Shown here piece after piece: positions 47,354 to 54,716 of a DNA stretch of 64,000 nucleotides. Numbering within the stretch: position 1 is the first letter of the stretch; each line of letters starts with the position of its first letter. The position numbers and the translations under genes were made by a program. The notes under the pieces are model-generated. The model ran no database searches, had not been told where the DNA came from, and worked only from the letters and a program-made list of their open reading frames with translations. This DNA comes from Chloroflexota bacterium (lineage in GTDB: Bacteria; Chloroflexota; Limnocylindria; Limnocylindrales; CSP1-4), in the NCBI GenBank assembly GCA_016191345.1, contig JACPOU010000004.1, positions 38,932 through 102,931 of the forward strand, in the 5' to 3' direction.

Positions 47354-48532
47354 ATGCGAATCGCGGCACGGATGGGCTCCATCGGCACCGAGACGGCGTT
47401 CGAGGCCGCGGCGCGCGCCCGCGCCCTCGAGGCCACCGGGCGCTCGATCATCCACCTCGAGGTCGGCGAACCGGACTTCGACACGCCGGCCAACGTCCGC
47501 GAGGCGGCGAAGCGGGCGCTCGACGAGGGCGCCACGCACTACCCGCCGTACGCCGGCCTGCCGGACCTCCGGGCGGCGATCGCCGAGGACGCGGCGGCGC
47601 GGAAGGGCTTCCCGGTGGACCCGAGCCAGGTCTTCGTGACCATCGGCGGCAAGGGCGTCATGGTCTACGCGATCCTCGCCCTCGTGGACCCGGGCGACGA
47701 GGTCATCGTCCCCGACCCGGGCTACCCGATCTACGATTCGCTGACCCGGTTCGTCGGCGGGACGCCGGTGCCGATCCCGATCCGCCAGGAGGACGACTTC
47801 CGCCTCGACATCGACCGGCTGGCCGGGCTCATCACGCCGAGGACGAAGCTCCTCGTCCTCAACTCCCCGGCGAACCCGACCGGCGGCGTCCTGACACGCG
47901 AGGACAACGAGCGGATCGCCGAGCTGGCGATCCGGCACGACCTCGTCGTCCTCGCTGACGAGATCTACGGCCGGATCCTGTACGACGGCGCGGAGCACGT
48001 CTCGATCGCGAGCCTGCCGGGCATGGCCGAGCGCACGGTCGTCCTCGACGGCTTCTCGAAGACCTTCGCGATGACCGGCTGGCGCCTCGGCTACGCGATC
48101 GTGCCCGACTGGCTCGTCAAGGCCTACGGGACGCTGATCATCAACACCGTCAGCGGGGCGACGACGTTCGCCCAGCGCGGCGCGATCGAGGCGATCCGGG
48201 GGCCGCAGGGACCGATGGACGAGATGGTCGCCGAGTTCCGGGCCCGGCGCGACCTCGTCGTCGACGGCCTGAACGAGATCCCGGGCTTCTCCTGCCTCCG
48301 CCCCAGCGGCGCGTTCTACGTCTTCCCGGACATCTCCGGCACGGGCTTCACCGGCGCCGAGCTCGCCACGCGGCTGCTCCAGGAGACGGGGGTCTGCGTC
48401 CTCGCCGGGACGGCGTTCGGGCACGTCGGGACGCACCACATCCGGATCTCGTACGCGAACTCGCGGGAGAACCTGGCCGAGGCCCTGTCGCGGATCCGCG
48501 GCTTCATCGCCGCGAACCCGAACCGTGGTTGA
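47354..48532 (+). CDS. PLP-dependent aminotransferase class I (aspartate/aromatic type)
   Basis: A 392-residue fold-type I aminotransferase. It shows [25 protein letters not shown], the PLP-Lys motif [16 protein letters not shown] and the carboxylate-binding Arg in HHIRISYA. Subgroup I-gamma aspartate aminotransferases fit best, but specificity is not certain. The start at 47354 rather than the track's 47342 is preferred because of the leaderless promoter. It is translationally coupled (TTGA overlap) to a 2-hydroxyacid dehydrogenase, suggesting amino acid or hydroxypyruvate/glyoxylate metabolism. Confidence 0.9.
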
Positions 48533-49566
48533 GGGCGGGTGCCGTGGCTGACGGCGCGGGCGGCAGTGGATCCGGCGCGGCGCGCCCCCGCGTCTTCGTC
48601 GCGCGGGTCATCCCCGAGGACGGCCTCCGGCCGGTGCTCGAGGCCTGCGAGGCGCGGGTCTGGGAGGACGAGCTGCCGCCGCCCCGCGAGGAGCTCCTCC
48701 GGGCGATCGAGGGCTGCGCGGGGGTCCTGACCCTGCTCACGGACAAGGTCGACGACGAATTCCTCGACCGGGCGGGGCCGGGCCTTCGTGTCGTCTCCAA
48801 CTACGCCGTCGGGTTCGACAACGTCGACGTCGCGGCGTGCACCCGGCGCGGCGTGGCGGTCGGCAACACGCCCGGTGTCCTCACCGACACGACCGCGGAC
48901 CTCGCCTGGGCGCTCCTGATGGCCGCCGCCCGCCGGATCCCGGAGGGTGACCGGTACGTCCGCGGCGGCCGCTGGAAGACATGGGGCCCGATGCTCCTCC
49001 TGGGACCGGATGTCCACGGCGCGACGATCGGGATCGTGGGCTTCGGGCGGATCGGGCAGGCGGTCGCCCGGCGGGCGGCCGGCTTCGGGATGCGGATCCT
49101 GTACCACGACCTGCACCGCCACGATGCGGCCGTGGAGGCCGAGTTCGCGGCGACGTTCCTGCCGCTCGAGGAGCTGCTCGCCCAGGCCGACTTCGTGTCG
49201 CTCCATGTCAACCTGACGCCGGAAACGCGGCACCTCATGAACGCCGAGCGGCTCGGCTGGATGAAGCGGGACGCGGTGCTCGTGAACACGTCGCGCGGCC
49301 CGGTCGTCGACCCGAAGGCGCTGTACGAAGCGCTCCGTGACGGCACGATCTTCGCCGCGGCGCTGGACGTCACGGATCCCGAGCCGATCCCGGCCGACGA
49401 CCCGCTCCTGGGCCTCGACAACTGCCTCGTCGTGCCACACATCGCATCCGCGTCGCGCGCGACCCGCGGCAGGATGGCCTCGATGGCCGCCGCGAACCTC
49501 ATCGCCGGCGTCCGTGGCGAGCGTCTCCCGACCCCGGTCAACCCCGAGGTCTACGGGCGAGGCTGA
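48529..49566 (+). CDS. D-2-hydroxyacid dehydrogenase (glyoxylate/hydroxypyruvate reductase-like)
   Basis: A 345-residue NAD(P)-dependent dehydrogenase with Rossmann GxGxxG in [16 protein letters not shown], substrate loop [11 protein letters not shown], catalytic Arg in [10 protein letters not shown] and the Asp/Glu-His pair ending in VVPHIASAS. Closest in pattern to GyaR glyoxylate reductases. The TTG start overlaps the aminotransferase stop (TTGA); GTG 48544 is an alternative. The pairing suggests a transaminase product reduced by this enzyme. Confidence 0.9.
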
Positions 49567-49769
49567 GCGGTCGGCGAGGTCAGGGTTCCGGCGTCGGCAC
49601 GCCGACCCCGCGATGAGCAGGGGGCGGGACGAGCAATCCACCGGCGAGACGCGCGATCGACCCCTGCATCGCTCGCGCCGGCTCGGCGTCGGGCCCTGCC
49701 CTGTCCAGCTGCGAGTGCATGGCCCCCAGCCTTCGCTACGTCGTTATCGTTTGCCAAGAAGGGAGCTGG

Positions 49770-50522
49770 ATGCGGAACCGCTTCGCAGAATGGGTGGCGC
49801 GCCATGAGGTCGCCTGGGAACTTACGTTTGCCGGGCTTGCCATTGTGTTCGTGGCGCTCGCCTTCGTCCCGGTTACCGTTGGCGCGGCGGACGAGGCCGT
49901 CGTCGAGGCTGCCGAATGGGTGATCACGGCAGTCTTCGCAGCAGAGTTCCTCGCGCGTCTCGGGTCCTCATCTGATCGCAGTCGCTACATCCGCGGCCAC
50001 TGGATCGACTTGGTCGCGCTGGTGCCTCCGGCCCGGTGGCTACGGCCTTTCCGTTTGCTCCGCCTGATTCGTCTCGTTCGTGCGTTCGCCGGCTTCGGCC
50101 GAGCCCTGACCTCGGTTGAGCGACTGGCACGCCACACTGGGCTCGTGTGGCTCCTCGTAGCTTGGGCAGCGGTCGCGATCCTGACCTCGATCGGCCTCTA
50201 CGTCGCCGAGAACGGGACGAACGAGGCGATCACTGATCCGCTTGATGCTCTGTGGTGGGGCATCACGACGATGACGACCGTCGGCTATGGCGACGTCTAC
50301 CCGGTCACCGGTGAGGGGCGCGTCGCGGCGTCGGTCCTGATGATCCTGGGGATCCTTCTGTATTCGTCGATCACCGCCACGATCGCGAGCTTTCTCATGG
50401 GTACGAGATCCGGCCCCTCGCCCGCAGCGCGTATCCGTGAGCTCGCCATCCTCCGTGACGAGGGATTCATCGACGACGAGGCGTTCGCGGCAAAGCGCGA
50501 CGAACTTCTCGCTCAACTCTGA
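49770..50522 (+). CDS. Voltage-gated-type K+ channel with C-terminal SHOCT-like motif
   Basis: A 250-residue six-helix ion channel. S4 carries regularly spaced Arg (RPFRLLRLIRLVRAF). The pore has the filter MTTVGYGDVYP between S5 and S6. The last 30 residues (IRELAILRDEGFIDDEAFAAKRDELL) match the SHOCT oligomerisation motif. ATG 49770 with AAGGGAG upstream is preferred to the track's 49719. Codon use is visibly more relaxed (more A/T third positions) than in neighbours. Together with tRNA-Lys just downstream, this hints at acquisition by transfer. Confidence 0.9.
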   Translation: MRNRFAEWVARHEVAWELTFAGLAIVFVALAFVPVTVGAADEAVVEAAEWVITAVFAAEFLARLGSSSDRSRYIRGHWIDLVALVPPARWLRPFRLLRLIRLVRAFAGFGRALTSVERLARHTGLVWLLVAWAAVAILTSIGLYVAENGTNEAITDPLDALWWGITTMTTVGYGDVYPVTGEGRVAASVLMILGILLYSSITATIASFLMGTRSGPSPAARIRELAILRDEGFIDDEAFAAKRDELLAQL

Positions 50523-50536
50523 GGGAGGCTACGTTA

Positions 50537-50698
50537 TTGAGTTTCCGGATGCGACGGGGCCGTGCGTCGTTGAGCGTCGGTCCGCGAGGCCCTAGGGTTG
50601 GCTTCCGCCTGGGCTGTCTGCTCCCGATACTGCTGGTCGCGGTGGCTCTTGCCCATCTACCCAGTGCCCGGCCGGTGAACCGCGAACCCCCGAACTGA
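50537..50698 (+). CDS. 53-aa basic single-helix membrane protein (not in ORF track)
   Basis: A TTG start at 50537 follows GGGAGG with an 8-nt spacer. The frame gives MSFRMRRGRASLSVGPRGPR, then a hydrophobic helix GCLLPILLVAVALAHL and a short polar tail before TGA. The N-terminal Arg/Ser/Gly pattern (RASLSVGPRGPRVGFRLG) resembles the tiny beta motif of DUF4236-like proteins. It lies 14 bp after the K+ channel stop and is probably co-transcribed. Too short for the supplied track. Function unknown. Confidence 0.55.
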   Translation: MSFRMRRGRASLSVGPRGPRVGFRLGCLLPILLVAVALAHLPSARPVNREPPN

Positions 50699-50717
50699 AC
50701 GTGATACGGTCCCGGCC

Positions 50718-50789
50718 GGGCCCGTAGCTCAGCGGCAGAGCAGGGGACTTTTAATCCTCGTGTCGTGGGTTCGAATCCCACCGGGCCCT
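50718..50789 (+). tRNA. tRNA-Lys (anticodon TTT)
   Basis: Complete cloverleaf: acceptor GGGCCCG/CGGGCCC, anticodon stem GGGGA/TCCTC with loop CTTTTAA (anticodon TTT), T-loop TTCGAAT, discriminator T. CCA is not encoded, unlike tRNA-Arg in this window. Confidence 0.95.
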
Positions 50790-50874
50790 CTGTTGTGACC
50801 TCCGAGCCACGCTTGCGAGGCGTCGTGATCATCGTCGCGGCTCGCTCGCCCGGCTCGTCGCGGCCCGTCCCCCC

Positions 50875-52146: not shown

Positions 52147-53277
52147 TCAACGGCCGAAGACCCTGACCTCGGCCGCCTCCAGCTTCGACCACCAGCGGTG
52201 GTACCGGCTGTAGACCTTCGGGTCGCGGGCAAGAAGGAACCCGGTGAGCGCGGCGGCCTCCGACTCGAGCCCGATCCAGTCGGCCTTCGTGAGTGCGCGG
52301 AACGCGCTCGCCTCGATCGCGCCGTCGAGGAGCCGCCACACGCCGGCGACCCGCCCATCGACGAGCAGCGTCGGCAGCGTGTCGCCGTTCTGGTGGATGA
52401 CCCGCCGCCGGTAGTCGGGCGGGATGACTCGGCTCCGGTCCGCGTAGGCGAGCAGGACGCTGTCCCACATCGGCAGGAGGCGCGGCGGCGCCAGCTCGTC
52501 GCCGCCGGGGATGGATGCGCCGGCGATGTCGTACAGCTCGGCGCCGTCCGGTCCTTCCAGCCGCACGATGTCCTCGCCGAGGGCGGCAAGCGCCTCGCGG
52601 ACGACCGGACGCCGGAGGATCGTGAACTGCGCGACGTCGACCACGGATGCCGGCCCGAAGCCCTCGAGGTATCGCCGGACGAGATGCCGGGTGGCCGCCG
52701 CCCGCTCCTCGGCCGGGAGCGTTGACGGTGCGGCCCGGAACCGGGACCTGAGGCTGAACGACCACGGCGGGCCGGCCGGCACGTGATGGAGCGGCGCGAA
52801 GGTCCGGTACGCCCACCACATCCGTGGCTGGGGCGCCCCGAGCCGCTCCGTGATCAGCGCCTCGATCTCCGCCTTCGACCGCGGGGTCCTCGCGAAGTCG
52901 AGGACGTGCAGGAGCAGGCCGTCCGCGTCGGCGATCGCGAGCCCGGTCTCCCGGTAGCGGCCGTCGTGGAGCCGGGATGCCCGGAGGCTCGACACCATGG
53001 CCGCGTGGAATCGTGGGTAGTCCCCGGCCGTGACCGCATGGAGCGTGATCCGGACGAGCGACGACTTCACGATCGACCCGCCGGCGAACGCGGCATCCAG
53101 CTCCATCGGATCGAACCCCGCGAGGCGGTTCCAGAGCGCGATGTAGGGCGACGCCGGTTCCTGGGCCTGGAGCGCGACGACCCGGTGGACGCCCTCCACC
53201 ACGTCCACTGCGCGGCGTTCGAGCAGGAGCTGGCGGTCCAGCGTGGCCCGGTTGAGCTGGCGTTCGGTCAGCGGCAT
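52147..53277 (-). CDS. Winged-helix DNA-binding domain protein (HTH_42/AlkZ-like)
   Basis: A 376-residue protein of the HTH_42 family (PF06224 type), related to the DNA glycosylases YcaQ/AlkZ. The N-terminus MPLTERQLNRATLDRQLLL, the QAQEPASPYIALWNRL segment and GGSIVKSSLVRITLHAVTA are characteristic. The QxQ-like catalytic motif of AlkZ appears as LQAQEP, close but not decisive. ATG 53277 has CAGAAT six bases upstream, consistent with leaderless transcription; the track start is 36 bases longer. Could be DNA repair or regulation. Confidence 0.82.
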   Translation of the reverse strand: MPLTERQLNRATLDRQLLLERRAVDVVEGVHRVVALQAQEPASPYIALWNRLAGFDPMELDAAFAGGSIVKSSLVRITLHAVTAGDYPRFHAAMVSSLRASRLHDGRYRETGLAIADADGLLLHVLDFARTPRSKAEIEALITERLGAPQPRMWWAYRTFAPLHHVPAGPPWSFSLRSRFRAAPSTLPAEERAAATRHLVRRYLEGFGPASVVDVAQFTILRRPVVREALAALGEDIVRLEGPDGAELYDIAGASIPGGDELAPPRLLPMWDSVLLAYADRSRVIPPDYRRRVIHQNGDTLPTLLVDGRVAGVWRLLDGAIEASAFRALTKADWIGLESEAAALTGFLLARDPKVYSRYHRWWSKLEAAEVRVFGR

Positions 53278-53283
53278 CGGGGG

Positions 53284-53289
53284 ATTCTG
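53284..53289 (-). promoter_or_regulatory. Candidate leaderless -10 hexamer CAGAAT
   Basis: CAGAAT six bases before ATG 53277 on the minus strand. Confidence 0.4.
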
Positions 53290-53344
53290 GCCTGCCTGGA
53301 CCGCGGCGCACAAGGCGGTTCGGCAACCGGTTGACTGACTACCC

Positions 53345-53350
53345 TACGAT
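53345..53350 (+). promoter_or_regulatory. Candidate leaderless -10 hexamer TACGAT
   Basis: TACGAT seven bases before ATG 53358. The seven-base spacer CGCGCAG contains no ribosome site. Confidence 0.5.
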
Positions 53351-53357
53351 CGCGCAG

Positions 53358-54716
53358 ATGCCCGATCGCGTCCCTGCCGCCGCGGGCGGCCCAGCCGTGC
53401 CGTCGCCGGAACCCCACGGTGTCGGCGCGCGCCTGACGACCGCGCAGGTCAGCGCCATCAACCGCTTCCCCGACGACAACCCGAACCCGGTCATGCGCAT
53501 CGATGCCGACGGGCACCTCATCTACGCCAACCCGGCGAGCGCGCCGATCCTCAGCACGCTCGGCGTCGCCGTCGGCGACGAGGTGCCGGCCGAAACCCTC
53601 GCCCGCTTCGAGGCCGTCGCGGCGGAGCGGGGCTTCGTCGAGATCGTCGCCGCCAGCCGTACCTACGCGGTGTGGCCCGTCCCGATCCGCGACATGGACT
53701 TCACGAACCTCTACGGCACCGACGTGACCGCCGAGCGGGCGATCGTGAAGTTCCCCGACCAGAACCCCAACCCGGTCTTCCGGATCCACTGGGACGGACG
53801 CCTCGCGTACGCGAACCCGGCGAGCCGGCCACTCATCGCCGGGCTGGGGCTGGCGGTCGGCGTGGTCCTGCCGGACGAGCTCCGCGATCGCCTGCTGGCC
53901 CGGGTCCGGGCGACGGACGGCGACATGGTCGAGGTGGAGAGCGCGCGGCGCACGTATGCGCTCCTGCCGGTCGACGTGCCCGAGTTCGGGTTCATCAACG
54001 TCTACGGGACCGACATCACGGCGGTCAAGGAGCGCGAGCGGCTGGCCCGCGAGAACGAGCGGCTCCTGCTCAACATCCTGCCCGAGCCGATCGCCGCCCG
54101 GCTGCGGGAGGGCGAGCCGCTCATCGCTGACCGTTTCGACGACGTCACGCTCCTCTTCGCCGACATCGTCGGCTTTACCCAGCTCTCGGCGTCGATGTCG
54201 GCGCAGGAACTCGTCGCGGTGCTGAACGACGTCTTCACGGTCTTCGACAACCTGGTGGATCGCTATGGCCTCGAGAAGGTCAAGACGATCGGCGACGCGT
54301 ACATGGTCGTCGGCGGGATGCCGGAGCGATCCGACGATCATGTCGCGCGGGTCGTGAGCATGGCGCTGGACCTCGCCGACTGCGTGGCCGGGATCCCCGC
54401 CGCCGCACGGCTCGGGATCACCTTCCGGATCGGAATCCACTGCGGGCCGGTCGTGGCCGGCGTGATCGGGACGAAGAAGTTCATCTACGACGTCTGGGGC
54501 GACACCGTCAACCTCGCCAGTCGCATGGAGTCCCTCGGGATCCCGGGCCGCGTCCAGGTCACGCCGGCCGTCGCCGAGCGACTGGACGCCACGTTCGAGG
54601 TGGAGGCGCGCGGCCTCATCGACGTCAAGGGCAAGGGTCCGATCCCGACGTATCTCATCGTCGGGCGCGTTGCCGAGGTTCGCGAAATACCTGTGGACAC
54701 GACGATGAACATCTAG
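53358..54716 (+). CDS. PAS-PAS class III adenylate cyclase
   Basis: A 452-residue soluble signalling enzyme. Two duplicated PAS-like sensors begin FPDDNPNPVMRIDADG and FPDQNPNPVFRIHWDG, each ending in YGTDxTA. A short coiled coil (KERERLARENERLLLNILP) links to the cyclase domain. Metal Asp residues are in LLFADIVGFT and the second metal motif, the purine-specifying Lys/Asp pair in VKTIGDAYM and YDVWGDTVNLASRME. This set fits adenylate rather than guanylate cyclase. Start 53358 is preferred over the TTG at 53331 on promoter spacing. Confidence 0.92.
   Translation: MPDRVPAAAGGPAVPSPEPHGVGARLTTAQVSAINRFPDDNPNPVMRIDADGHLIYANPASAPILSTLGVAVGDEVPAETLARFEAVAAERGFVEIVAASRTYAVWPVPIRDMDFTNLYGTDVTAERAIVKFPDQNPNPVFRIHWDGRLAYANPASRPLIAGLGLAVGVVLPDELRDRLLARVRATDGDMVEVESARRTYALLPVDVPEFGFINVYGTDITAVKERERLARENERLLLNILPEPIAARLREGEPLIADRFDDVTLLFADIVGFTQLSASMSAQELVAVLNDVFTVFDNLVDRYGLEKVKTIGDAYMVVGGMPERSDDHVARVVSMALDLADCVAGIPAAARLGITFRIGIHCGPVVAGVIGTKKFIYDVWGDTVNLASRMESLGIPGRVQVTPAVAERLDATFEVEARGLIDVKGKGPIPTYLIVGRVAEVREIPVDTTMNI

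Follow-up and report, generated by a model that had tools for sequence, protein, structure and literature searches.

Does the short reading frame between a potassium channel gene and a tRNA-Lys gene in a Chloroflexota bacterium (assembly GCA_016191345.1, contig JACPOU010000004.1) encode a protein and, if so, does that protein have anything to do with the channel? Gene callers readily overlook small membrane proteins that partner transporters, and the product considered here, at 53 residues, does fall under the 60-residue cut-off of ORF callers, as an earlier note on this DNA had pointed out; the interval named in that note, 50523-50789, takes in the tRNA as well. All positions refer to the window, the whole stretch of 64,000 nucleotides that was analysed. 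The reading that we prefer, and that we put forward as possible rather than probable, is that of a real small gene whose product would be a shortened, DUF4236-like single-pass protein, made and acquired together with the channel and possibly acting on it.

The Reading Frame and Its Surroundings

The frame has 53 codons, opens with TTG and reads MSFRMRRGRASLSVGPRGPRVGFRLGCLLPILLVAVALAHLPSARPVNREPPN (Table 1). The stop codon of the channel gene, TGA at 50520-50522, is followed at once by GGGAGG, which stands 8 nt ahead of the TTG, so that the strong Shine-Dalgarno sequence claimed earlier is indeed there, as are the basic head and the one hydrophobic helix. The TTG itself lies 14 nt past the channel stop, an arrangement like that of coupled genes; the next in-frame ATG, at 50549, is too distant from GGGAGG. 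A single-sequence structure model of the peptide contains one helix, at residues 19-39, with moderate confidence (mean pLDDT 66). Downstream, the putative -10 region of tRNA-Lys begins 2 nt past the stop of the ORF. No structured RNA or riboswitch was found in the gap between channel and tRNA, a promoter and terminator scan gave nothing usable, and the RNA fold of the gap is unremarkable (z = +1.65).

Table 1. Features of the locus between the dehydrogenase and tRNA-Lys genes, in window positions
Feature	Position	Strand	Basis or remark
2-Hydroxyacid dehydrogenase; within the genus, conserved to the left of the tRNA-Lys locus	48529..49566	+	Domain search, locus comparison
Lineage-specific segment, mostly of lower GC, with channel and peptide	49567..~50688	.	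GC profile, DNA comparison with relatives
Voltage-gated-type K+ channel, 250 aa, Ion_trans, TTVGYGD filter, SHOCT-like C-terminal stretch	49770..50522	+	Domain search, alignment, structure match
Shine-Dalgarno-like GGGAGG	50523..50528	+	Abuts channel stop codon
53-aa ORF	50537..50698	+	Basic DUF4236-like head (residues 1-24), predicted membrane helix (~25-41), short tail
Putative tRNA-Lys promoter -10 region, cgtgaTACGGT	50700..50710	+	Position similar in several relatives
tRNA-Lys (TTT)	50718..50790	+	tRNA prediction

The Channel and the Segment That Carries It

The upstream gene matches Ion_trans at 3.8e-20 and Ion_trans_2 at 6e-15, and its likely start is the ATG at 49770, behind AGGGAG, rather than 49719. 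The closest solved structures are KvAP-type channels (PDB 6uwm and 1orq), which have the six-helix core and the TTVGYGD filter in common with it; unlike them, the window channel carries a short SHOCT-like tail (2.5e-4 and 21.1 bits, under the 27-bit cut-off), and ion-channel proteins with SHOCT tails have been described (PMC3581485). Codon statistics of the kind that the earlier note had called for, with the 64-kb window as reference, agree with its description of the channel as atypical: third-position GC is 0.76 and CAI 0.48, against ~0.88-0.98 and 0.64-0.87 in most of the clear window genes, and the codon use is clearly foreign. The distribution of the channel is patchy, with any match at 1e-10 in 36 of 107 family genomes and a best match of 59%, to a single member of the genus.

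Members of the genus mostly retain the gene order aminotransferase, dehydrogenase, tRNA-Lys; the stretch that separates the last two varies from 23 bases to 3.6 kb and holds differing genes (L094-L111). When positions 49401-50800 of the window are compared with the DNA of relatives, matches are confined to the dehydrogenase, ending near its stop codon, and to a right-hand part that starts at ~50671-50718, mostly at 50689 or later, and runs to the end of the tRNA. The GC content drops from ~49700 to ~50690. Since the DNA of the interval differs in every relative examined, channel and peptide sit on one swapped segment of ~1.1 kb, and the suggestion that the two form an acquired unit beside the tRNA holds up to this extent. 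The same cannot be said of integration mediated by the tRNA. A tRNA-integrated mobile island is not supported: the check for attachment-site duplication revealed no second copy of the tRNA-Lys 3′ end within the window and no integrase was found in the segment, which lies 5′ of the tRNA and contains the channel and the peptide ORF only. As nothing points to attachment at the tRNA, its proximity may be incidental. Further along the window, 52147-53313 and 53331-54716 encode an AlkZ-like DNA glycosylase and a PAS-adenylate/guanylate cyclase, both ordinary.

Chance Expectation and Codon Use

One alternative is that the frame arose by chance in the non-coding, GC-rich DNA that separates the channel from the tRNA promoter. 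Its length is ordinary for such DNA, in that a forward ORF of at least 50 codons occurs in 9.5% of model sequences with the length and composition of the gap (P ~0.10). The strength of its helix is unusual: in the model sequences, a helix with a Kyte-Doolittle mean of at least 2.2 in such an ORF has P ~1e-4, and helix and Shine-Dalgarno sequence together appeared in none of 20,000. Among the 106 window ORFs of 45-75 aa, a helix of this strength is found in one, which is the peptide ORF itself, and none of 966 shadow ORFs of the same size range (from the window and related loci, with the peptide ORF left out) has a matching helix. All of these figures are optimistic, because the ORF and helix cut-offs were picked once the ORF had been seen.

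Codon use, by comparison with the window, gives no argument for coding, since the frame of the peptide ORF is no better by codon composition than the next one; its third-position GC (0.70) and CAI (0.38) are lower than those of the channel, and its codon use departs from that of host genes. This indistinct frame is what a chance ORF would present, as are the lack of a homologue and the position of the final codons, which fall within the stretch upstream of the tRNA that is common to relatives. The rarity of the helix with its start signal argues the other way, as does the ordered match to DUF4236-helix proteins described below, and on balance we regard a chance origin as unlikely.

Homologues and the Resemblance to DUF4236

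Searches of ~500 genomes of the phylum (family and class included), of GTDB representatives, of IMG/VR and of phages and plasmids yielded no homologue of the peptide, and none was found adjoining any of ~100 relatives of the window channel; all matches were at noise level, mostly within longer frames of other genes. The searches of phage and plasmid proteins are weak ones, in which the BLAST low-complexity filter may mask such heads and in which the DUF4236 consensus also matched nothing. The degenerate pattern GxRGxR..RxGC had no match in viral contigs, and a shorter form of it was found in the window alone among 177 genomes. Conservation near K+ channel genes, the pattern to be expected had the earlier note been right on this point, was thus not seen, and one of the findings that it had listed as speaking against its reading, the lack of conservation, is what the searches returned. 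The peptide was thus found in this one genome only, with no orthologue.

Pfam, NCBIfam and PHROGs do not recognise the peptide; in Pfam there was no match at E <= 10, and the gathering threshold of DUF4236 (PF14020), 27 bits, is not reached. One of the noise-level matches, from a genome within the same class, is a DUF4236 protein with RLGCLLP and a helix after the domain. Aligned with it, the peptide keeps the order: KRG-ASLSAGRRGARVTF pairs with RRGRASLSVGPRGPRVGF and, past a gap of 20 residues, RLGCLLPAALVIVAL with RLGCLLPILLVAVAL. The ordered match to the DUF4236-RLGCLLP protein of genome G127 scores 94, against maxima of 77.5 in 2000 architecture-keeping shuffles (which preserve the compositions of head, helix and tail) and 71.5 among 1327 shadow ORFs. 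The core of the peptide, ASLSVGPRGPRVGF, compared with the DUF4236 pattern [SG]-x-S-x-G-x-R-G, scores 10.7 bits to the DUF4236 profile. By the E-value of that profile the score falls short of significance; it was equalled by none of 1327 ORFs and by one of 5000 shuffles, all of these shuffle figures being uncorrected for the choice of family, which was taken up after the resemblance had been noticed. The N-terminus, MSFRMRR, fits the DUF4236 start M-x-[FLWI]-R-[FLI] with M replacing F/L/I, a fit that beats 98.1% of head shuffles and that 4 of 1329 ORFs attain equally well; this favours the TTG as the start. In the reverse direction, a search with the DUF4236-RLGCLLP protein recovered the window ORF with an E-value of 0.001, close to noise, and GCLLP or GC helices like that of the peptide occur in other DUF4236 proteins too.

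The DUF4236 membrane-helix proteins of three genomes (G127, L210/L252; G129, L253; G140, L259, 82 aa) have in common with the peptide the M-x-[FLW]-R start and, after an S-x-S-x-G-x-R-G core that its own core resembles, (R)xGCLLP with a single hydrophobic helix. The peptide differs from DUF4236 in missing ~14 residues before and ~20 after the core, including the C-terminal PGTG motif, which is absent from its 53 residues, and in scoring under the Pfam cut-off. Its resemblance to a shortened form of DUF4236 with a membrane helix is a good lead to its descent, not proof of it.

The same resemblance leaves room for a decayed remnant, in which the channel was once followed by a full DUF4236 gene that internal deletions then reduced to 53 functionless codons. 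The alignment requires two deletions, of ~14 and ~20 residues, which take away PGTG, near-invariant at the end of the domain, and the poor codon fit and the occurrence in one genome only agree with decay. Both deletions, however, would be in frame, and the Shine-Dalgarno sequence, start, frame and helix are intact, so that we give decay a low likelihood.

DUF4236 Genes Beside Ion Channels

Four Chloroflexota genomes place a DUF4236 gene near a channel. In G129, a channel-like gene (Ion_trans_2 just under the cut-off) is followed by a DUF4236-RRLGCLLP gene whose start codon shares one base with the stop codon before it (TAGTG), so that this gene, like the window peptide, stands directly behind a channel-like gene. 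The DUF4236 gene of G191 lies ~100 nt downstream of a channel on the same strand; in G263 a channel, one small Excalibur-like ORF and the DUF4236 gene follow one another on the same strand, and in G225 the channel is ~1 kb away on the opposite strand. Channels are thus near 4 of 35 Chloroflexota DUF4236 loci and near none of 40 control stretches of the same genomes (Fisher 0.043), or none of 143 when 103 further, shorter loci are pooled as controls (Fisher 0.0013), both values coming from the loci on which the excess was discovered. Given how few loci are involved, the link between DUF4236 and channels is a lead and not a result. The channels concerned are distant from the window channel, and ~100 relatives of the latter have no DUF4236 neighbour. 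The idea of a channel-associated small protein, as first proposed, therefore lacks direct conservation and gains indirect support, since the peptide resembles DUF4236 and DUF4236 genes are found near channels more often than controls are.

A Possible Partner of the Channel

To judge from gene layout, the peptide is probably translated together with the channel gene, and it may be a partner or modulator of the channel. In the mechanism that we propose, the ORF would be translated from the channel mRNA by way of the Shine-Dalgarno sequence at the channel stop codon (coupled translation), and the product would be a single-pass protein with its arginine-rich head inside the cell, following the positive-inside rule, and its helix across the membrane. 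Its ancestor would be a DUF4236-GCLLP-helix protein, shortened in such a way that the head retains MSFRMRR at the start and ASLSVGPRGPRVGF as the core and passes straight into RLGCLLP and the helix, and it would have come with the channel on the 1.1-kb segment that separates dehydrogenase and tRNA-Lys. Its most likely role would be next to the channel, as a membrane neighbour that affects assembly, stability or gating.

We know of no small partner encoded alongside KvAP. The analogy on which the model draws is the supposed role of KdpF for KdpABC. KdpF, a 30-aa peptide co-transcribed with kdpABC (PMC3618439), is a precedent for peptides encoded with K+ transporters and, like the window peptide, is a short single-helix peptide; it belongs to a different transporter and has no known sequence relation to the window peptide, whose pairing with a channel is one of gene layout.

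A real small membrane protein might also have a function unrelated to the channel, as a free-standing regulatory or small toxic peptide travelling along. Many small membrane proteins consist of a single helix and a basic head, and the peptide is absent beside the channel's relatives. Against this stand the start so close behind the channel stop, as in coupled genes, the DUF4236 resemblance with its channel neighbourhood, and an RNA fold without the unusual structure that a type I toxin system might show; we think such an independent function improbable.

Returning to the partner reading, if the peptide is real, it would tie the uncharacterised DUF4236 to ion channels in a testable two-gene unit. 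A wider claim, less likely still than any of the alternatives above, is that DUF4236 proteins, together with the shortened window form, are anchored in the membrane as partners of six-helix ion channels in prokaryotes. Were it true, DUF4236, which is widespread, without known function and given one passing mention in the literature searched, would represent a class of bacterial channel auxiliary subunits.

Further Observations

Small ORFs behind channel relatives, considered as possible kin of the peptide, proved unrelated; one example is an 88-aa ORF with two predicted helices and a good Shine-Dalgarno sequence, 110 nt past the stop of another channel relative (L068). The window channel (49770-50519) matches the uncharacterised phage family phrog_7872 at 1e-36, so relatives of the channel occur in phages. 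A PF14020 search of the window's own genome found, in place of the peptide ORF, one genuine DUF4236 gene at another location, close to the end of a contig (G000:C57:24818-24961, L215). Same-strand DUF4236 genes downstream of ion channels can be seen at L253:672-2257, L214:1168-2651 and L218:1471-3020, in three Chloroflexota genomes, and two of these three channels have altered selectivity filters, TSMGDGG and TSLGYGS.
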